The notes beneath the pieces were generated by a model. That model had not been told where the DNA came from and did no database searches. It saw only the letters and a program-made list of their open reading frames with translations. From contig OX387603.1 in the NCBI GenBank assembly GCA_947568835.1, forward strand, positions 27,676,651-27,740,650: 64,000 nt of DNA, given 5' to 3'. This document shows positions 17,115-60,392 of this stretch, piece after piece. The DNA comes from Protonemura montana (taxonomy: Eukaryota > Arthropoda > Insecta > Plecoptera > Nemouridae). Position 1 is the stretch's first letter; the number at the start of each line of letters is the position of its first letter. The translations under genes and the position numbers were made by a program.

Positions 17115-17187
17115 TGGAGGTGCCGGGCATTGATCCCGGTACCTCTCACATGCTAAGCGAGCGCTCTACCATCTGAGCTACACCCCC
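17115..17187 (-). tRNA. tRNA-Ala (AGC)
   Basis: Reading the minus strand from 17187, all four tRNA stems form: acceptor GGGGGTG/CACCTCC (one G-T pair), D arm TAGCTCAGATGGTAGAGC, anticodon loop CTTAGCA with anticodon AGC, and a T arm with CCGGG/CCCGG around GATCAAT. There is no intron. It is followed on the minus strand by a T-rich run (17102-17114) that would stop RNA polymerase III. Sequence and folding match animal cytosolic tRNA-Ala. Confidence 0.95.
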
Positions 17188-17441: not shown

Positions 17442-18345
17442 GATTGATTTGTGGTGTTTAACGACGCATTGTTATCAAAACGGATCATTTGGAACTGGTT
17501 TAACGGAGGCGGTGAATGATCGGGTGATAAGAAGGGACCTAAACCAATGATATGTCAATAAAGCCTAGCCTAAAAGGGTGGAGAGAAAACCCGGTGCTGT
17601 TATGTAGTCATCCCAAAGGGACCACCGGCTTAACGTCCCTTCCGAAGGACGGTTCAACGCAAACAACAGGATTATTTCACAAATCCATGCTGTTGAGAGG
17701 TTGATAAGCAAGGCGAGTGAAGATGCTTTACTAACTTTCATCCCTCCAACCTCTCTCCCGAACAGAACTGGTCATGTGTATGATGGTCACCCATCCAATA
17801 CCTGACCCAGCGCAGTGTTGCTTAACTTCGGTGATCTCACGAGGACCAATGTTTCCAACACGACAAACAGTTCGGTGGTCACCCATCCAATACCTGACTC
17901 AGCGCAGTATTGCTTAACTTCGGTGATCTCACGAGGACCGGTGTTTCCAACACGCCAAACCGTTCGGTGGTCATCCATCCAATACCTGACCCAGCGCAGT
18001 GTTGCTTAACTTCGGTGATCTCACGAGGACCAATGTTTCCAACACGACAAACCGTTCGGTGGTCACCCATCCAATACCTGACCCAGCGCAGTGTTGCTTA
18101 ACTTCGGTGATCTCACGAGGACCGGTGTTTCCAACACGCCAAACCGTTCGGTGGTCATCCATCCAATACCTGACCCAGCGCAGTGTTGCTTAACTTCGGT
18201 GATCTCACGAGGACCAATGTTTCCAACACGACAAACCGTTCGGTAGTCACCCATCCAATACCTGACTCAGCGCAGTGTTGCTTAACTTCGGTGATTTCAC
18301 GATGACCGGTGTTCCCAACACGCCAAACCGTTTGGGTGGTGATAC
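17442..18345 (-). mobile_element. 5S-rRNA-derived SINE, copy 1, with expanded head
   Basis: Read on the minus strand, the element starts with several copies of a 5S-rRNA-like head (AAGTTAAGCAACACTGCGCT, then ATTGGATGGGTGACC). It continues with a ~330-bp body shared with the copies at 33478-34055 and 34858-35520, and ends near a GATTGATT-type tail at 17442. The head keeps the 5S internal promoter parts (A box, intermediate element, C box). This matches the SINE3 type of organisation (5S-derived promoter plus unrelated body). Confidence 0.8.
17786..18337 (-). repeat. Six tandem 92-bp 5S-derived units (184-bp higher-order period)
   Basis: CACCCATCCAATACCTGAC or its CATCC variant recurs about every 92 bp (near 17788, 17880, 17972, 18064, 18156, 18248). 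Alternate units carry ACCAATGTTTCCAACACGA or ACCGGTGTTTCCAACACGC, so the true period is a 184-bp dimer. Each unit keeps the 5S internal-promoter core. The first third of 5S rRNA is missing, so these are not functional 5S genes. Confidence 0.85.
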
Positions 18346-31743: not shown

Positions 31744-32261
31744 CTTCTAAGATATGAAGGTCCTCACAGTAGCAGGCAAAACAGAGGAATGAGATCGGAC
31801 AGCACAGCCTCTCGGCTTTTAACGCTGCCCACTCGAGAAGCGATCGTAACCAACGTGCATGTTTGGTTGCATACCATTGGTAGAAGAAGAATAATGCTGC
31901 CATCTTTAAAGATTAGATATTTATCAATTGTTTGATTGCTGGCCGTTGATTAGGTATTATCTTTCGAGTTTATCCAAATTGGTTGTGACTTGTTTTTATG
32001 GTCAATGTTTTGAAATGTAGATGAGGTTGGCTTGCTATCTTTAAAGCCATTAGGAGTTAGTGTAGCAGGTAGCTAGGTTATGGTGGGAATACCGTGTAGT
32101 ACATGAACTATTTCTTCATGACTAGGTACTTTATTTTGTTGGTTAGGTGACCGCATTGAAAAAATGTCACTAAAGGGTAATAAAAACGTAGAAATTAAAA
32201 TAGCAAACTCTTTTATTATTATAAACTCTGTAACCGTCTCAAAAATTGATGCGCAAACGGG
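31744..32261. other. GILT upstream region, no gene seen
   Basis: Non-coding. It should hold the GILT promoter and 5' UTR on the minus strand. I could not identify a TATA box or start site with confidence. Confidence 0.4.
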
Positions 32262-32374
32262 GACTCGAACCCCGATCTCCACCTGTCGCGGGTGTTGCTC
32301 TAAACCATTGAGCTACTTGGACCCCGATCTCCACCTGTCGCGGGTGTTGCTCTAAACCATTGAGCTACTTGGAC
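32262..32374 (-). repeat. tRNA-like SINE head with exact 52-bp duplication
   Basis: On the minus strand, GTCCAAGTAGCTCAATGG (A box) and GGGGTTCGAGTCCCC (B box/T arm) are tRNA-like. The anticodon arm lacks U33 and the acceptor ends do not pair. Bases 32271-32322 are repeated exactly at 32323-32374, which duplicates the A-box half. Confidence 0.65.
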
Positions 32375-34857: not shown

Positions 34858-35520
34858 ATTTGATTGATTATTGGTGTTTAACGACGCACTGTTTTGACAT
34901 CTGGCCATGCGGCACTGGTCTAATGGCGTCGGTGAATGAGTGGACGATGATGAGGATGAGGATGATGATGAGGATGATAATTAGAATGATGATGATGAAA
35001 CTAACCTAGCCTAGAAGGGAGGAGGGGAAACCTGGTGCCAGCACGTAGCCTACTCCTGTCGAAGAGCACCAAGGGGACCACCGGCTTAACGTCCCTTCCG
35101 AAGGACGGTACAACTCGAAAAGCAGGATTCCTCCACAAATCCATGATGTCGAGAGGTTGATAAGCAAGGCGAGTGAAGTTGCTGTACTAACTTTCATCCC
35201 TCCAACCTCTCTCCCGAACAGAACTGGTCATGTGTATGATGGTCACCCATCCAATACCTGACCCAGCGCAGTGTTGCTTAACTTTCATCCCTCCAACCTC
35301 TCTCCCGAACAGAACTGGTCATGTGTATGATGGTCACCTATCCAATACCTGACCCAGCGCAGTGTTGCTTAACTTTCATCCCTCCAACCTCTCTCCCGAA
35401 CAGAACTGGTCATGTGTATGATGGTCACCCATCCAATACCTGACTCAGCGCAGTGTTGCTTAACTGCGGTGATCTCTCGAAAACCGGTGTTTCCAACACG
35501 CCAAACCGCACGGCGGTGAT
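34858..35520 (-). mobile_element. 5S-rRNA-derived SINE, copy 3
   Basis: Reverse orientation. The tail GATTGATTATTGGTGTTTAA is at the low-coordinate end, followed by a GATGATGAGG-rich microsatellite (~34945-34995), the body, and three tandem heads (near 35233, 35325, 35418). The outermost head (35455-35510) carries the copy-1 type linker (ACCGGTGTTTCCAACACGCC), so both linker types coexist in one element. Confidence 0.8.
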
Positions 35521-51454: not shown

Positions 51455-54400
51455 ATGCCGGTCTCGGAACTGTTACTGCTTCCGGAAGAAATATTATTGA
51501 AAATATTTTGCAATCTGCCTAAAAGATCGCTAACAAAAACAGCTCAAGTTTCCAGAACTTTCCGGAGAATTTCTTACGATCCGACTTTGTGGAAACAAGT
51601 AGTGTTCAAAAATCAGATCCTGTGTGCAGGCACACTTGGGTTTATTCTTGCTCGTGGAACAACTACTCTGCACATCCTTAATTGCCAGGTACGTTCGTTG
51701 CATTCTCAGAATTATAAAAAAACCATCATAAAACATTCTTAGAAAGTGTCTGTATGACTAACTTCAACAGGAAATATTTGTTGCATACAGTGTTATTTTA
51801 AAAAATTTTCACATTTATTTATTTATTTGCATTTCTCTTACAATTTTACAATTAAGTTACGGTGGTAAGGTAATACCGTTGAGTGTAGGTTATAGGTAGA
51901 GTTTCAATATTTATAGTAGGTTACTCGCTTATGAATATCGTTACGTGTTTATCAATCGTTGAGGTAAACATTGATGGAGATTTTTTTAAGCATGAAAAGT
52001 CACAAAAGCGAGTTAACCTACGAGAAATATTGAAATTAAAATTCATACGACAGTGGCTCCACTTAACGTGATTGTCCGGTACTCTGCATTTTTGTCGGTA
52101 AGGTAGTAATTTTTCACGCAGAGACTTTAACATTGACGTTGAAACTCTACCTATAACGTACACTCAACGGTAATACTTAACCTTATCTTTACTAAATTCA
52201 TGGACCTAGTTAAATTGTTAGTTTCAAAAGAAATGTTGCTTTCATTTTCTTTTTGGGAAAGAATAAAACACGACTTACTGGGGTAGAAACGACTACTTGT
52301 GGCAGATATAAAGAGGTACTTTGGCTGTTTTTGTGAGGTTGATTACTGAGATAAGTCTTGAGATTGAAATCTTATTTTGGGATTGAGGTTCACATTTTTT
52401 TGTCTACATTTCATCGAGATCAGAGTTTTAAAACTTAGAGAAACCTTAGAGGCCAGAATGACTGAATAATTGAATACATGAACAGGTTTTCAGCTGCAAT
52501 TTATAACTTTTAGTGGTAGGGTTGCTTAAAAGCATATCTCAAAGGTAGCATGTAAATAATGAAATGTGCCAGAATTTTTCATTTTCTGTCAATTTTTCAT
52601 TTTGACAATCCTATTGCATTTTAAAAAACATACATAATTCAAGATTACGATTTAAGATCACGAAGAATGTGAATCATGAAGCATTCATTTTCAATGAAGA
52701 TGATGGATGATTATGGAAGTGCATCTGCAGTGGTTATAATGGTTTGAAAAAGAAAGCAAGATGGCCGGCAGCCAAGACATTAGAAAGATGGCAGACGAAC
52801 TAGGTAGGCAAGATGCAAACAGTGAAGTAAATTGTAAGCCAAACAGGAACAATTGCCCATTATGCACAAAAATAGTGAAAAGTGGGTTGCAGTGTGTCGT
52901 ATGCTCACACTGGTTTCATTTTACATGTGTGAATAGAGTCGGGAAGGACTATAAACTAAAAGTAAGTGACCTCGTGTGTACAGACTGCGAAAGTGTGATT
53001 AAGGACGGAGAGGTTAACGATAGGCCTACAATAGCATCATCGGCAGTAGAGGACTCAGTGACTGTAGTGGACAAAGAAATCAGAATGGATAAGAAAAGAA
53101 ATGAGAAAAAGAAGTGCAGCAAATGTGACGGAGCAGGGAGGGAATTCGAAAGGATGTGGCTGGAGATTGACATGCTTAAAGCACAACTACAAGGAGTGAC
53201 GTCTCAGTTGAATGGCTTTGAGGATGAAGTGAGGAGTACCATGACTGCTACTTCTGAACCAACAGTCAAAAACCAAGAGCCAAACCCAGATCAAAAACAG
53301 CAACCAAGCAAACAGCAACCAGCAACTAGCAACCAGCAAGCAGGAATTAGTAAGACATTTGAACAACAAATGGCAGATTACAAAAAAGATCAAGCACAGA
53401 AGCACCAAGGATCCACAAAAATAGACCCAAAATCAAAGAATAGATCAAGGGAAGTACCAACAGACCGGAGACCAAAAGTGGACAAGATGTATGATCTCCT
53501 GACATTGGATGCGCTGGGAGATAAACGAACGAAACGGAAACCAACTACAAACCGTAAGTCTAATGGTAAAAGAGGTGATACTACATCAGATCCCTCAAAA
53601 ACAACCGAGGAACAAGAAATGGTTATGAACCGAATGATGGTTAGAGAGTGCGAGGGGGATCTATTTACCCAAACTGATGGGTCCTACTCTCTAGGGCACT
53701 GTGTGTCTGAGGACTTGCTGATGAGTCGAGGAATAGCAGCAGAATTTAAATCTAGATTTGGAAATATGGATGTACTGATAAGCCAAAAGAAAAAAGTGGG
53801 GGAAGTGGCAATACTGAAGGAAGGTGATAGGTACATCTACTACCTGATTACAAAGAAGCTAGCTAGCGAAAAACCAAACATGCAAGATCTAGTGAAAACA
53901 GTGGAAGCCATGAAGCAGCACAGCCTAACTAACAATGTTAGAAAAATTGGAATACCTCGTCTCGGAAGTGGATTGGACCGCTTAGAATGGCGAGCAGTTA
54001 AAGACGTGGTAAAAAAAAACCTTCGAAGACACCAGTGTGGAAATATTAGTGTGCCATCTATCACCACCTTTGCTCAGGAGAACAAGGGTACATGCCAGTG
54101 AACCACAGCCCCAGCAGCCGTTTCACGAACAGCAGTGGCCGAGAGTCGGTGAACAAGGACAGCAGTGGCCGAGAGTCGGTGAACAAGGACAGCAAAAGAC
54201 GAGAGTCGGTGAACCACAGCCACAGCCCCAGCAGCCGTTTCACGAACAGCAGTGGCAGAGAGTCGGTGAACAAGGACAGCAAAAGACGAGAGTCGGTGAA
54301 CCACAGCCACAGCCCCAACAGCCGTTTCACGAACAGCAGTGGCCGAGAGTCGGTGAACAAGGACAGCAGTGGCCGAGAGTCGGTGAACAAGGACAGCAAA

Positions 54401-57400
54401 AGACGAGAGTCGGTGAAACACAGCCACAGCAGCCGTTTCATGGACAGCAGAGGACGAGAGTCGGTGAACCACAGCCACAGCAGCCGTTCCATGGACAGCA
54501 GTGGCCGAGAGATGCGTTGGATTTTCGGAACCAGCGGAACGGAGACTCCAGGCGCCCCGGCGGGATGGCGTCACCAGGGCAACGGGAAATGGCACCGGAA
54601 CCTCGGTACTCTCGGGACCAAAACCAAAACAAAGGGGACTCTCAAACCCAGCCCAGGGGGGGAAAGAGGGGGCCCTACCTCCAAACTTGGACGAACAGTA
54701 AAGGAGAGAGAATACTATTGTGCAAAGAATGCAGTTTATAAATGTAGGGTAAAACGAAAAGACACATGTGGAAGTTCGCTCAAATTAATGCTAATCAATG
54801 CAAGGAGCCTTCTTAATAAGATAGATGATTTAAGAACCCTCACTATCACCTATGAGCCAGATGCAGTGGTTGTAGTAGAGACATGGCTCAGCGATGAAAT
54901 CACACAAGGGGAGCTGATGTTAAATGGATATACTATCCACCGCAGAGACCGTAATAGAAATGGGGGAGGAGTCCTCATTGCATGCAAAGAGCACCTCAGT
55001 GCCACGAAACAATGGGAAGACGATGAACATGAAATATTGTGTGTAAAAATAGGGGGGAATGATAACCCTACGGTAGTAGTTGGGGGATACAGAACAGGGC
55101 CTGGAGGAGCCGCTTTCCTTGAGTGCTTGGCAAGGAGAGTGGAAATGCTAGGACCCGATACAAAGGTACTCCTCGCTGGGGACTGGAACTTCCCGAACAT
55201 AAAATGGTGCATTAACCTGCGGGAGACTGGAGGGGGCGTCCAGACCCAGGTCAACTTCCTCATGGGTATGGGATTTGAACAAGCAGTACAAGAGGGTACA
55301 AGAGAACTGGCAGATGGCAGATCAAACCTGCTGGACGTAGTCCTAGTAAAGCCGAGGAATATAATAATAAAAAGTGAGGTAACAGAGGGCATAAGTGACC
55401 ATAAATTGGTGCTCATAGAAGTAGAGAATGATAGGATAGCTAAGGCAGAGCAGACCTGTAAAACTAGAGTGGTCTGGCAATACAAAAAGGTAGACAAAGC
55501 AGGGCTTAAGCAAGAACTTTGGGACAATTTTGAAGAATGGACGTTATCAAAAGGGACGGTAGAAGCAAGGTGGATAGAAATGATGGCAATAATGCGAGCA
55601 GCTTGCAACAGGCACATACCGTCAAAAATTATTAAGGTGTCTAGCGACCCGCCATATTACAACAGAACAATCAGGAAACTGAAAAGAGAGGCCAGAGTAA
55701 TATGCAAAAACCGTGCTCGCATAGCAAATGGTGGGTGGAGACTTAAGATGAAAAGAAAACAGATAAAGAAAGCGATTGGGGAATCACAAGATAAGTTCTT
55801 TATGAGTATGCTCAAGAACGGAGAAAAGGAGGGGTGGCGTAACTTATATGGGCATGTTCGCAGGACCAGAGGGGGCGGACATACTATCCCAAAGCTAGTA
55901 GACACAGATGGGGTTGAGCATACCTCGGCCAAAAGCAAAGCGGACGCCCTAAATAGGTACTACTCAATGGTATTCGCAGCAGGGGAGAAGCATAAGAAGC
56001 AAATAAGATGCAACACAAGGGGACAGGCACCCATGGCATGCAGGATAGAGTTTGTTCTCCAAGCCATCAAAAGCCGTAAGAATGGGAAAGCGCCAGGCCA
56101 AGACGGGTTAACTGCAACCTTCCTCAAGACAGCAGGTCTTGAAGCAGCAATGTATCTGGACTCCCTGTTTAACCAAATAATTGTGGACGGTGTCATACCC
56201 ACTGGCTGGAAAAAGGCCATAGTCATTCCTATTCACAAAGGTGGGGAAAAGAGAAAAGTAGAGAACTACAGACCAATTAGCCTGACCAGCATAGCATGTA
56301 AGGTGCTTGAAAAGATAGTATGCAACTACCTAAGAAAAATCCTACATGATGAGAAGTGGCTATCACAAGCCCAGCACGGGTTTAGAGCAATGCACTCATG
56401 TGAAACTCAATTAGTCGCTTTGACACAAGAACTAGCAGACGTGATTGACAAGGGAGGGGTAGTGGACGCGGCTTTCCTCGACATGAGAAAGGCGTTCGAC
56501 TCGGTCCCCCACGCGCTACTCATCAAGAAGTTAGACAGAATAGTGGAGGATAAAGCAGTGCTAAATTTAATCATCGACTTCTTAACAAATCGTGTGCAGG
56601 TTGTGAGTGTGGAAGACAAACTATCGACAGAGGCGGACGTGACATCCGGTGTACCACAGGGAAGTGTCTTGGGCCCCCTGCTATTCATTATATTTATAAA
56701 CGACATCGAGGAAGTGGTCTCTGGGAGGATAAGACTATTTGCGGATGACTGTATTGTGTATAGACAGATCCGAGATAGAAAGGACGAGGAGGCATTCCAA
56801 ATGGACATTGAAGCAATAGACAAATGGATGGACGACAATAGCATGCAATTGAACCTGGACAAATGTGAAGTTGTTAGATTTGGCAAGAAGAAGACAAAAT
56901 GCAACAGAGAATATGAACTTAAGGGAAAGGAGATAAAATGGAGCAAGGGATATAAATACCTAGGTGTATGGTTGGATGAAAAATTGGATTGGAAAGGCCA
57001 AGTTGAAAGAGTGGCAACCAAAGGAATCTGGTGTTTGAACTTTGTGATGAGAATACTAAGGGGTACGCATAAATCGGTAAAGGCACAGGCATACAAAACG
57101 CTGGTCAGGCCTATCTTGGAATATGGGGGTATGGTATGGGACCCATATCACATAGACCAGGTTAAAGCGGTCGAAAGGGTTCAGAGGATGGCTGCGAGGA
57201 GGGTCATGGGGAGGATGAAGAGGTGGCGCTAGGACGCAAACACCAGATCTCGTGTCAAGGAGAGCCCGAGCGCAATGATCCTGGAGCTGGGATGGGAAAA
57301 CCTCAGCACTAGGAGAAGTAAAGCAAGGCTGTGTGGGCTGCACAAAGCCCTGAGCGCCCATCAAGGTTGGGCTGAGGTAGGGGCTGGCATCGAGATAAGC

Positions 57401-60392
57401 CTCAGTCAGCGAAATGGCCAGGGATTGAGGGAGAGAGGTTCCAGAACAGAAGTCGGCCGGAACTCCTTCCTGGCCAGAACCATTAGGGAGTGGAACCAGC
57501 TGGAAGCCCCCATAAGGGAGAAATCAAATGAATGCACAACAAAAACATTTAAGAGAAGATTAAATGCGTGCACTAACTGAAGTTCCTAAAAAAAAAAAAA
57601 AAAAAAAAAAAAAATGCTAGTCTATTATATAGTAATATAGTATTAAGCTACTACTATTAGTCTAGATGTAATATTATTCCTTGCCAATGTACACTATGTG
57701 CGCTTGTAAGATGTAAATAAATGAAAATGAAATGAAAAACTAATTTATATATTTTTTTAAATCGATTTATTTTTCGTCCAATTTTACTGTATTAATACTG
57801 TCGCCTACACGTAATTACGCTCTCGTCAGGATGGTCATTTTGGTGTAAGGACCAAACACAGTATTATCTTGTCAACACACAGAAAACTTACAACAACTCT
57901 CTTTTAAATATGAGAACAACCCTCAAACCCAACACTCGACTTCACTCCACGAGTCTAGCACCTCAATAGCTAGCTCTTCCTTTAGCGGGAATTCAAATCT
58001 TATCTAATGTTGTTCTAACATTACTACCAAACTAACAGTCTTGATAATGCTAGCGCCAACGCTGGCGAAACGTCGACCACCGACACGGTCCTTTTTAGGA
58101 CCAAAAAACCATTCAACAGAGCAAAAACCGTTTTCACCTACACTACCAAACTTATTTTTTATATTCTTTCAATTTCAGTTTGAAGAGCCATTGTGTTATG
58201 GTGAGCCACCAGAGCATGGATATGAGCTTCAGTGCTTACGAGTGAGAGAATACAACGACAATCTCTCTGATGGTGAGTCATAACCACTTTGTCAACAATT
58301 TTATTTTTAAAGACTGTGATTAACACTTCTAGACGCCAAGATTTTCTACGAGTTTCTAATCAATTTTCTTGTTCGATAAAACAGTGTTTCAGGTCCTTCT
58401 TAGCCATTGCAAGTGCCTGAAGAACGTTACCTTGGAGGTGCGAAAGTTATCAATACACAATTCCCACTGCGTAGCAATTGCAGAGAATACGGCGCTTGAG
58501 TTTTTGAGCTTGAGCTGCACGGGTTTGACATTTATAGGGTTACTCAACATCATACGAAATTGTCGAAGGTGAGGTGGGATCCGATTGAGATTGTTTCTGT
58601 TGTCGTATTGTATTTTTATTGAAATTTGGCCAAGTACCAAGTACCTGTAAGAAGCATAAGACATACTTGCATGAGTAGCGCTAGGAACTTGTACGTGAAG
58701 GATTTACCAAGTACCTGTAAGAAGCATAAGACATACTTGCATGAGGAGCGCTAGGAACTTGTATGTGAAGGATTTACCAAGTACAAAATCAGTAGAAGCG
58801 GGTTATTTTTTTTCCGGCTGTGTTTGGAGTTGATATGTTAACCTGCTAAGTGTTTCTCATTTTAGCAAAGCAGCGGGTGTTTCTGGTAAGATAGAATTAA
58901 TGGCAACGTCTAATGATTTTTCAGTCTTCATACTTTTGAATACGGAAAGTACATCCCAATGACACCCTCCGCGGTCCAAACGCTGGTAAATGAGCTCTCC
59001 AACCAGATGAAAGTCATCGACGTTTTCAGATATAATGAGTCGCTGCAGGATGATCGTAAGTTTGGACTTATTTAGAGACTCTTCTGGCTACCAGATCATT
59101 GGCTAACATATCTATGATCAGTGATCACAATATTGGCAAGGTCTGAAGACGTAGCTGTGGTTGTGCCAATACATTAAAAAAAAACACCATATTTTCACAA
59201 CAAATAACTGCCTTTCTTTCGTAACTGACTAACTTCCCAACTTATTTCACGTTAGCTTTTCTTTTTTTTGGTGCTGACCTCATTTATAGAAGGTGTGGAA
59301 GAATTAACAATGTTTCAGCACCTTGTGACTTTTGCAGATCTTGCTACACTCGTAAAAAACTGTCCGAACATGACAGACTTGAATTTGAACGGGTGTCAGA
59401 ACATAACAGAAGCATCGGTGCATCATCTGGCATTGCTGCAAAAACTGGACAACCTTAACATAGCCGGATGTGCCAAACTACCTTACAATGCAATTGCGTA
59501 CGTACATCACTGGCACTGGAATTATTTGGTTGCTTAAAATTAATCGGATGAGCTTAGTGAACGAAGCGAGCAAAACTTAGACTCAATTTGACCACTCGGG
59601 GCCGATTTCACCAACGCTGTCCAAATCAAGCGTTGATTTTCCCCGTTAAGCCGACATTTTGAAAGCAAATGTTTAAAGGCAATAAAAAGAGGTAAATTTA
59701 AATTTGACGATGATTAAGGAAGACTTTGTCCTGTCACAAAAAAGAAATGTTATTTAGCAGCCGTCACTATTTTCTCTCTGCCCAAATCACCATTTAATAT
59801 TTGAATCTCATTGGATGAGGGTTATTTGGAGGTCAAAGTAAGTAGTCCCACTAATATTTTATTTCTATTTCATATCATAAAATATTTTGTTTGGAAGCAA
59901 ACATATTGTTAAAAAGTAAAAACTATTTCTTTCTTTTTCTTTGTGTATTGTTTCAATTTTTTAGTTTGCTATTATCAAAATATCATTGTTTTAAAGCAAA
60001 TAACTGTGTTGGTTAAAATAACCTCTAAACGTCGTTTAAGAGCGTTTTAAACTGCGTTGGTCAATCGGCCCTGCAAAGAAAGGAGAAATGTAACGTTTTG
60101 CACCTTGTAGCAATAACTTGCAAGTATATGGAAGTTAACATTCCTTTACATCCACTTTCAAATGTGAAGTTGCATTAGAAATTAACACAAATCTGGAGAC
60201 GACAAAAACTCGTAGGATAGATGGGAGTAGATTCATACTTTCGTAAAGCTATCTGCCTCATTTGTAGCAGAAACAAAGATTTGGCCGAAGATTGAAATAA
60301 AAATCTATTTTTAACCAGAATATTTTTGTTTCAGACGTTTACCTCGCTTGCAGCCCTTCAAAACGCTGTGGTATACGATCACCTTTAATTGA
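51455..60392 (+). CDS. Skp2: SKP2-like F-box / leucine-rich-repeat protein, complete
   Basis: Substrate receptor of an SCF ubiquitin ligase; SKP2 directs turnover of cell-cycle inhibitors. Exons: 51455-51688, 58179-58272, 58385-58568, 58925-59055, 59290-59497, 60335-60392, giving 302 aa in consistent phase. The F-box is at ~7-48 (LLPEEILLKIFCNLPKRSL...PTLWKQV). LRRs follow: CKCLKNVTLEVRKLS, NTALEFLSLSCTGL, LATLVKNCPNMTDLNLNGCQ and LQKLDNLNIAGCAKLP. Their order and FADLATLVKNCPN match SKP2. It is shorter than vertebrate SKP2 (~424) because the long N-terminal extension is absent. An in-frame TGA upstream fixes the start at 51455. Intron 1 (6.5 kb) holds a full-length LINE in the same orientation and a fold-back element. 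Another FBXL is possible but less likely. Confidence 0.85.
51868..52183. mobile_element. Fold-back MITE in SKP2 intron 1
   Basis: Inverted arms: ACCGTTGAGTGTAGGTTATA then GGTAGAGTTTCAA on the left, and TTGAAACTCTACC then TATAACGTACACTCAACGGT on the right. An inner pair (AGTAGGTTACTCGCTT / AAGCGAGTTAACCTAC) lies within them. It is ~316 bp and non-coding. Confidence 0.8.
52761..54101 (+). CDS. LINE ORF1: PHD finger plus TARG1/OARD1-like macrodomain (446 aa)
   Basis: Residues 32-76 form a C4HC3 PHD finger (C32, C35, C45, C48, H53, C56, C73, C76), a known feature of ORF1 proteins in several CR1-group LINEs. Residues ~120-155 hold a CxxC pair and a likely coiled coil. A Gln/Lys-rich linker runs to ~285. 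Residues ~292-435 match the ADP-ribose glycohydrolase TARG1 (OARD1) along its whole length: EGDLFTQTDGSYSLGHCVSE, KKKVGEVAILKEGDRYIYYL, ITKKLAS and LGSGLDRLEW. The two residues essential in TARG1, the Lys of ITKK (here K365) and the Asp of GLDRL (here D406), are both present, so hydrolase activity is plausible. The stop overlaps the ORF2 start by 10 nt. Function in retrotransposition is inference. Confidence 0.9.
   Translation: MAGSQDIRKMADELGRQDANSEVNCKPNRNNCPLCTKIVKSGLQCVVCSHWFHFTCVNRVGKDYKLKVSDLVCTDCESVIKDGEVNDRPTIASSAVEDSVTVVDKEIRMDKKRNEKKKCSKCDGAGREFERMWLEIDMLKAQLQGVTSQLNGFEDEVRSTMTATSEPTVKNQEPNPDQKQQPSKQQPATSNQQAGISKTFEQQMADYKKDQAQKHQGSTKIDPKSKNRSREVPTDRRPKVDKMYDLLTLDALGDKRTKRKPTTNRKSNGKRGDTTSDPSKTTEEQEMVMNRMMVRECEGDLFTQTDGSYSLGHCVSEDLLMSRGIAAEFKSRFGNMDVLISQKKKVGEVAILKEGDRYIYYLITKKLASEKPNMQDLVKTVEAMKQHSLTNNVRKIGIPRLGSGLDRLEWRAVKDVVKKNLRRHQCGNISVPSITTFAQENKGTCQ
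54092..57232 (+). CDS. LINE ORF2: endonuclease-reverse transcriptase, ended by a premature TAG
   Basis: 1046 codons from the ATG that overlaps the ORF1 stop. Residues ~5-145 are encoded by the minisatellite (SGRESVNKDS repeats). The endonuclease domain starts at ~230 (LMLINARSLLNKIDDL), with VVVVETWLSDE, NGGGVLIA, GDWNFPNIKW and SDHKLVL active-site regions. The reverse transcriptase spans ~700-950: YRPISLTS, FLDMRKAFDSVPHALL, SGVPQGSVLGPLLF, and the catalytic FADD at 883-886. After TAG (57230-57232) the same frame continues for 116 codons to 57580 with family-typical C-terminal sequence (RTIREWNQLEAP, FKRRLNA), so the stop is a nonsense mutation truncating the protein. Confidence 0.92.
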   Translation: MPVNHSPSSRFTNSSGRESVNKDSSGRESVNKDSKRRESVNHSHSPSSRFTNSSGRESVNKDSKRRESVNHSHSPNSRFTNSSGRESVNKDSSGRESVNKDSKRRESVKHSHSSRFMDSRGRESVNHSHSSRSMDSSGREMRWIFGTSGTETPGAPAGWRHQGNGKWHRNLGTLGTKTKTKGTLKPSPGGERGGPTSKLGRTVKEREYYCAKNAVYKCRVKRKDTCGSSLKLMLINARSLLNKIDDLRTLTITYEPDAVVVVETWLSDEITQGELMLNGYTIHRRDRNRNGGGVLIACKEHLSATKQWEDDEHEILCVKIGGNDNPTVVVGGYRTGPGGAAFLECLARRVEMLGPDTKVLLAGDWNFPNIKWCINLRETGGGVQTQVNFLMGMGFEQAVQEGTRELADGRSNLLDVVLVKPRNIIIKSEVTEGISDHKLVLIEVENDRIAKAEQTCKTRVVWQYKKVDKAGLKQELWDNFEEWTLSKGTVEARWIEMMAIMRAACNRHIPSKIIKVSSDPPYYNRTIRKLKREARVICKNRARIANGGWRLKMKRKQIKKAIGESQDKFFMSMLKNGEKEGWRNLYGHVRRTRGGGHTIPKLVDTDGVEHTSAKSKADALNRYYSMVFAAGEKHKKQIRCNTRGQAPMACRIEFVLQAIKSRKNGKAPGQDGLTATFLKTAGLEAAMYLDSLFNQIIVDGVIPTGWKKAIVIPIHKGGEKRKVENYRPISLTSIACKVLEKIVCNYLRKILHDEKWLSQAQHGFRAMHSCETQLVALTQELADVIDKGGVVDAAFLDMRKAFDSVPHALLIKKLDRIVEDKAVLNLIIDFLTNRVQVVSVEDKLSTEADVTSGVPQGSVLGPLLFIIFINDIEEVVSGRIRLFADDCIVYRQIRDRKDEEAFQMDIEAIDKWMDDNSMQLNLDKCEVVRFGKKKTKCNREYELKGKEIKWSKGYKYLGVWLDEKLDWKGQVERVATKGIWCLNFVMRILRGTHKSVKAQAYKTLVRPILEYGGMVWDPYHIDQVKAVERVQRMAARRVMGRMKRWR
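54104..54512 (+). repeat. 30-bp-based minisatellite at the ORF1/ORF2 junction
   Basis: Repeats of a 30-bp unit (core GGCCGAGAGTCGGTGAACAA) interspersed with ~27-bp CCACAGCCCCAGCAGCCGTT blocks. All periods are multiples of three, so every frame stays open through it: SGRESVNKDS in ORF2, QQWPRVGEQG in a third frame, and also both of the longest antisense frames. Confidence 0.85.
57740..58178 (+). other. Rest of SKP2-like intron 1, no feature seen
   Basis: Intronic DNA between the LINE 3' end and exon 2. No coding sequence was recognised. Confidence 0.4.
58640..58790. repeat. ~76-bp tandem duplication in SKP2-like intron 3
   Basis: Two adjacent copies of a unit starting CCAAGTACCTGTAAGAAGCA and ending AACTTGTAYGTGAAGGATTTA, differing at two or three positions. 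Confidence 0.85.
59598..60073. mobile_element. MITE-like interspersed element, copy 3
   Basis: Ends based on GGCCGATTTCACCAACGC and its inverse GCGTTGGTCAATCGGCC. The interior is shared with the copies at 11 kb and 44.6 kb. It lies in the last intron of the SKP2-like gene. Confidence 0.7.

Follow-up and report, generated by a model that had tools for sequence, protein, structure and literature searches.

A TARG1-type macrodomain as an apparently exchanged module in the ORF1 proteins of several LINE types of Protonemura montana

The stretch of Protonemura montana DNA analysed here (the window, 64,000 nucleotides) contains a LINE whose first open reading frame, ORF1, encodes a macrodomain of the TARG1/OARD1 type. 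As the domain is common to many LINE types of this genome and to two Ty3-like elements, the finding is that of a family, and not of a single element. It seems that the domain was captured and has apparently been exchanged as a module of ORF1 and of LTR polyproteins. We infer, as somewhat probable, an activity, a target and a counter-defence role: the captured TARG1-type (ALC1-class) hydrolase would erase host ADP-ribosylation from the RNP of the element, from its nucleic acids or from the insertion site.

All parts of the window LINE lie on the forward strand. A 5′ leader (52587..52736) held in common with the element at locus L002 (52587-52646 at 92% and 52662-52736 at 87%, by blastn) precedes ORF1 (52761..54101), an open frame of 446 aa as read here. 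Residues 32-76 (52854..52988) form a PHD-like zinc finger scoring 16.8 bits in Pfam (E=0.0072), which is under the cut-off; the PHD of a relative, L011, is over it at 26.6 bits. The in-frame portion of the macrodomain, residues 296-418, occupies 53646..54014 (Pfam, phmmer against PDB and Foldseek), and the codons for K365 (53853..53855) and D406 (53976..53978) correspond by alignment to those for the catalytic lysine (K84) and catalytic acid (D125) of TARG1. Compared with the L002 relative, ORF1 changes frame near 54013, so that here the end of the macrodomain (54013..54090, E=1.4e-4 to that relative) does not share the frame of ORF1; the change adjoins a run of A, and a sequencing error is therefore possible there. 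Tandem repeats with periods of 30, 51, 87 and 117 (54103..54511) lie between the macrodomain and the endonuclease, and are crossed by the first portion of the ORF2 frame (54092..57232), which may be non-coding. ORF2 contains an APE-type endonuclease (54800..55402; Exo_endo_phos, E=6.7e-12) and a reverse transcriptase (RT; 56243..56971; RVT_1, E=1.1e-35), the pair of Pfam domains by which it was assigned to a LINE, any likeness to the CR1 clade being tentative. No GDSL/SGNH esterase was listed by Pfam for the window ORF1. An in-frame stop (57230..57232) closes ORF2, and similarity to the ORF2 of a relative goes on in the same frame to 57544. Because the domain end is out of frame and ORF2 is interrupted, this copy is probably inactive, barring sequencing errors.

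When the 258.5 Mb assembly was searched with the DNA of the window LINE, at least 44 matches were found, with 20 loci returned, one of them the window itself. Fourteen loci were compared by blastn; the other five (L036, L042, L045, L047 and L049) are 71-77% identical. Thirteen of the 14 retain the 3′ part at ~90-99% identity, all beginning downstream of ORF1, and 12 of these (L032 in two pieces) reach a shared terminus at 57725..57745, which marks the 3′ end of the element; L040 ends at 57638. In the fourteenth, L041, similarity is confined to 52784-53432, the part of ORF1 upstream of the macrodomain. Such dispersed, 5′-truncated copies with a common 3′ end are as expected of a LINE, and the pattern is that of one with recent activity. 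There was no second copy of the exact window LINE with its macrodomain among the 14 compared. A search for target-site duplications gave a longest shared word of 10 bases, which was AT-rich, and no clear duplication. Ahead of the LINE, positions 52000-52176 form a separate short repeat that recurs near L034, L037 and L040 (82-96%). Elsewhere in the window are four 5S-rRNA-like matches (17862-18336 and 35395-35513, minus strand) and two tRNA matches (17115-17187 and 32250-32322), perhaps representing 5S-derived SINEs.

The identity of the macrodomain is indicated by sequence and by predicted fold. With the whole ORF1 as a phmmer query against PDB sequences, residues 296-418 best matched human TARG1 (4j5r, E=2.7e-35), a value that rules out a chance match, and other macrodomains matched the same residues at E=0.05 and above. 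The Pfam Macro family (cut-off 22) gave 21.4 bits for the whole of ORF1 and 24.5 bits for the domain alone. An AlphaFold2 model of the window domain (pLDDT 78.8, pTM 0.77, from 40 aligned sequences, the last part of this copy being out of frame) has a predicted fold closest to TARG1: its top eight Foldseek matches in PDB were TARG1 chains (E=2.6e-18, TM 0.82/0.91), and DarG came next. Human TARG1 was also the best solved match for the domains of L013 (1.7e-38), L014 (1e-31) and L028 (1.1e-23), and for an 11-sequence profile (4.2e-56, with DarG the runner-up at 2e-14). These searches bear out the initial annotation, made from the letters of the window, that a LINE ORF1 here carries a TARG1-like macrodomain which profiles should recognize and which has K365 and D406 in the places of TARG1 K84 and D125. 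It extended the homology to about residue 435; the in-frame part in fact stops near 418, and the remainder is in another frame. The available text of PMC7050489 gives the catalytic pair of TARG1 as Lys84 and residue 125, printed there as Glu125, whereas the PDB sequence has Asp at this position.

A protein search yielded 47 matches in the genome at E<=0.001, and when three relatives served as queries the numbers were 50, 51 and 47, mostly at the same places; these counts are lower bounds and take in partial, decayed and exon-split matches. The domain is thus found across many elements of the genome, excluding a quirk of one copy. Besides the window's own, at least nine LINE types have it in ORF1, each with endonuclease support (L002, L011/L012, L014-L016, L017-L019, L022/L025, L023, L024, L028 and L030, where a slash or range denotes a single type). 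Exo_endo_phos was found in the downstream frame of all seven LINE relatives scanned (L002, L012, L014, L017, L024, L028 and L030), in L012, L014 and L030 under the cut-off of 24.5 bits, and the endonuclease region of the window LINE was matched by L023 (E=5.8e-49) and L025 (E=1.2e-45). The stretch examined around L029 gave no ORF2 evidence. Among ten proteins, Macro scored above 22 bits in five (L010, L011, L013, L014 and L024) and 16.7-17.3 bits, under the cut-off, in the others (L002, L017, L028, L029 and L030); this weakens the case for a TARG1-type hydrolase, although the three relatives compared with PDB (L013, L014 and L028) all match strongly.

Domain order in these proteins, as read from Pfam, is varied. 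The ORF1 of L002 is SAP-macro-GDSL, with GDSL over the cut-off; that of L011 is PHD-macro-GDSL and that of L014 macro-GDSL, GDSL being under the cut-off in both, and a PHD-like stretch in L014 appears only by similarity to the window. In L017, L024, L029 and L030 the macrodomain is followed by tandem repeats (those of L017 draw low-complexity Pfam matches, PBECR4 and mucin-like), L028 is BTB-macro-repeats, and L010 has the macrodomain alone. At L052, read by eye, macro and repeats are followed downstream by an endonuclease-like start. Tandem repeats adjoin the macrodomain in the window (54103-54511) and at L013, L017, L024, L028, L030 and L052. Open frames exist elsewhere: that of ORF1 in L014 is 725 aa, and an ORF2 frame of 810 aa, beside L015 (a near-copy of L014), is open to the end of the stretch L081.

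Two further carriers, L013 and L020, we take to be Ty3-like LTR elements. In L013, aspartic protease, repeats, macrodomain, RT and RNase H follow one another in a single frame (Pfam), the protease, RT and RNase H being as expected of a Ty3-like element. In L020 the macro stretch is preceded by RNase H and followed by an integrase zinc-binding domain, and the element is judged broken because these three lie in different frames; the macro stretch has no Pfam match, and was detected by similarity (E=4.6e-19). This degraded stretch (C16:9787834-9788205), between RNase H and integrase remains, is placed unlike the macrodomain of L013.

Some of the LINEs have moved recently. L014 (on C3) and L015 (on C15) share 2501 bp at 99.96% identity, comprising ORF1 and the start of the endonuclease, and their 5′ flanks differ; L016 (on C16) has 1975 bp in common with them at 99.8%, and L017-L019 are ~96-98% identical in their main pieces. 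From the identity of L014 and L015 on two chromosomes, the ORF1 macrodomain and the endonuclease start have recently moved as a unit. A host gene that merely lies beside a LINE is excluded, as ORF1 and the endonuclease start were copied together in L014-L016 and in L017-L019. At L004-L009 (G000 C15:14042-57160 and C23), near a chromosome end and on a small contig, the macrodomain LINE copies are almost identical to one another and three are spaced by ~11.42 kb, which may reflect either a true tandem array or the assembly. TARG1-like macrodomain copies that are decayed or incomplete cluster at G000 C5:17499866-17577411.

There are also indications of exchange. The macrodomains of the window LINE and L002 are 71% identical, and their RTs 43%; in blastp the alignment of the two ORF1 proteins is limited to residues 254-431 of the window ORF1, and the N-termini show no similarity. 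That the two nonetheless have a leader in common signals a mosaic origin. The L022 frame contains an ORF1 with PHD-like and macro parts, 37% identical to that of the window, and past an interruption L025 supplies the remaining macrodomain, an SGNH-like motif (by eye) and an endonuclease. RT identity between the window LINE and the L015 element (L081) is 30%. Shared leader and macrodomain, set against unlike N-termini and diverged RTs, suggest that the macrodomain is a module handed between LINE lineages.

Conservation was assessed in 15 element rows, which include the broken L020, L022/L025 and L023, and omit L003-L009 (internal stops), the near-copies L012, L015, L016, L018 and L019, the partial L026 and L027, the cluster at C5:17.50-17.58M and further matches that are weak or incomplete. 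Median pairwise identity is 36% (range 19-74), and nine of 138 columns are invariant, among them the equivalents of K84 and D125, which are found in 15/15 element rows, in the host gene described below and in human TARG1. Under random placement both named positions would fall within 9/138 with a chance of ~0.4%, although any working relative would be expected to keep its active site. Some positions near the catalytic ones vary: TARG1 C122 is replaced by Ser (window, L002) or Thr (L013), L124 by Arg (L014), H32 by Gln and G121 by Ala (both in L028), and G123 by Ala (L020).

Between the window and L002 macrodomains, dN is 0.162 and dS 2.58 (saturated), a ratio of 0.063 with a bootstrap interval of 0.048-0.156 (126 codons, Nei-Gojobori; replicates with infinite dS were dropped from all intervals). 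For window-L003, window-L010, L002-L010, L011-L014 and L013-L011, dS is infinite and the finite bootstrap ratios are 0.04-0.38; L002-L003 gives 0.18 (0.06-0.43). Young pairs have too few changes for constraint to be visible: L011-L012 differ by three replacement changes and one silent change (ratio 0.78), and L002-L007, L017-L018, L017-L019 and L018-L019 by one to three replacement changes and no silent ones. When the ORF1 proteins of L011 and L014 are compared, conservation is highest in the macrodomain at 68% (90/132 residues), followed by the esterase (55%), PHD (45%), C-terminal part (26%) and linker (24%). Thus the purifying selection anticipated in the initial annotation is supported from relatives of the window copy, and the decay at the Lys and Asp that would have spoken against it is absent from all 15 rows. 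Low dN/dS would also arise from selection on the fold alone.

These data bear on the thought that the domain is a passive hitch-hiker, host TARG1 sequence that was transduced and is functionless for the element. LINEs can pick up host sequence, and several copies have decayed (L003-L009, L020, L023 and L027), as the window copy is itself broken; but many diverged families keep the domain in frame, constraint extends across a saturated synonymous distance, the catalytic residues are invariant, and the carriers range from LINEs whose RTs are ~30% alike to a Ty3-like polyprotein, all of which makes functionless carriage very improbable. It is rather less easy to set aside the view that the macrodomain serves mainly to bind RNA (or ADP-ribose), replacing the RRM or zinc-knuckle of ORF1p, any catalysis being incidental. 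TARG1 is described in the available text of PMC5928194 as binding RNA outside the ADP-ribose pocket, and Pfam gave no RRM, CCHC or Transposase_22, either in the window ORF1 up to E=1 or in ten relatives up to E=0.05. The catalytic pair, however, is needless for plain RNA binding and yet is among the 9/138 invariant columns in rows otherwise 36% alike, so that this alternative is disfavoured and we consider it unlikely.

The genome has a TARG1-like gene of its own (L021, C12:9958.0-9958.9k) with an apparent intron (splice sites by eye), 50% identical to human TARG1; the intron seems, again by eye, to hold a 5S-like piece. PARP catalytic domains occur in at least three places in the host genome (at least four matches). 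Phage provide a more distant comparison: 127 of 130 pattern stretches from IMG/VR encode relatives of the macrodomain, of which the best 80 were kept and 14 phage rows were chosen from these. Lys and Asp are invariant in the 14 rows, as they are across alignment A2 (39 phage sequences), only the Lys being an independent observation, since the search pattern contained the Asp. Many IMG/VR contigs (L085-L164), several of them >200 kb, encode TARG1/DarG-like macrodomains. A tree with TARG1 and the elements, as proposed in the initial annotation, groups both against phage (97/92), but leaves human and host TARG1 in an open polytomy with the elements. The data allow a single clade of elements (p-AU 0.505) but do not establish it, as it occurs in 28% of bootstrap trees, and they are compatible with one capture or with several.

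How might such a domain serve an element? ORF1p would bind the element RNA and travel along with it, and its macrodomain, using Lys365 and Asp406, would strip off ADP-ribose placed by ADP-ribosyltransferases of the host, so protecting the element. The substrates on the RNP could be acidic residues, RNA ends or bases, and others could be new cDNA or proteins at the insertion nick. Clearing host ADP-ribose off the RNP or nucleic acids of the element is most likely to be its role, and the action at the insertion nick put forward in the initial annotation is one among several possibilities. The known range of TARG1 would accommodate this: it cleaves ADP-ribose from Asp/Glu and from nucleic-acid phosphate ends (PMC7050489, in the text available), and is reported in the accessible part of PMC13036486 also to free uracil in RNA and thymine in DNA of ADP-ribose. 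Counting against the proposal, human L1 is not inhibited by PARP1 overexpression (PMC4441479, available portion), and the literature searched holds no report of ADP-ribosylation directed at these elements. A different use of the domain would be to counter ADP-ribosylation-based silencing, by stripping silencing factors at element promoters with PHD as chromatin reader, rather than to meet an attack on the RNP. SIRT6 MARylates KAP1 and so silences L1 (PMC4695847, in part), and PHD accompanies the domain in the window (weakly) and L011, while L022 and L014 show it on similarity alone; it is not listed by Pfam for L002, L017, L024, L028 or L030, however, and the available text of the same review leaves unresolved any TARG1-like action on sirtuin-made marks. 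We regard this use as quite unlikely, and return to clearance of the RNP or nucleic acids as the preferred role.

The closest known relative of the domain, TARG1/OARD1 (C6orf130), resembles it in sequence, predicted fold and the Lys84/Asp125 pair, but here the domain sits within a retroelement ORF1 or LTR polyprotein. Kapitonov and Jurka are said to have described, in 2003, LINE ORF1 proteins with PHD and/or SGNH esterase. Such combinations are known from PMC4120745 and PMC3905857 (available parts), and those LINEs are like the present ones in having PHD and esterase in ORF1 and APE endonuclease and RT in ORF2; the elements here add the macrodomain. The term ‘macro’ is absent from the main text of the ORF1 survey PMC4120745 and likewise from that of the bdelloid LTR paper PMC5408684. 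Macro domains aboard retroelements do have a precedent in fish epsilon-like ERVs, which may carry macro-domain ORFs (Basta et al. 2009, cited in PMC4977317); these are LTR retroviruses and not LINE ORF1, and the macrodomain class is unstated in the accessible text of PMC4977317. Viral macrodomains (Coronaviridae, Togaviridae, Hepeviridae) are likewise parasite-encoded hydrolases of Asp/Glu-linked ADP-ribose but are MacroD-type, whereas those here are TARG1-type with a catalytic Lys; in animals TARG1 is the sole hydrolytically active ALC1-like member (both points from the available text of PMC7050489). DarG and phage TARG1-like macrodomains have the Lys/Asp pair (in 14 phage rows, the Asp being part of the search pattern), but lie on the opposite side of the supported branch (97/92). 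No LINE with a macrodomain was among the literature matches listed (titles and abstract starts, with Repbase, preprints and most subscription journals outside the scope), and the use of a TARG1-type macrodomain as an ORF1 module by several LINE types looks new to the sources searched.

A bolder extension, possible but somewhat unlikely in our estimation, is that LINEs and LTR elements draw on a common, circulating stock of TARG1-type erasers, the reason being an undescribed defence in which the host ADP-ribosylates retroelement RNA, cDNA or RNPs, perhaps at uracil or thymine. Some families pair the eraser with an SGNH esterase, and theirs might be a two-enzyme ORF1p removing both ADP-ribose and acyl groups.

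The macrodomains of RNA viruses are understood as countering host ADP-ribosylation, and conserved, catalytic-looking macrodomains in several types of retroelement suggest that ADP-ribosylation restrains retrotransposons too; TARG1-type erasers with PHD, SAP, BTB and esterase partners would be natural tools for finding the mark. The roles of ORF1 proteins have long been unclear; the macrodomain widens the set of enzymes known in them, and its presence hints that transposable elements may be in an unseen conflict with ADP-ribose tagging.
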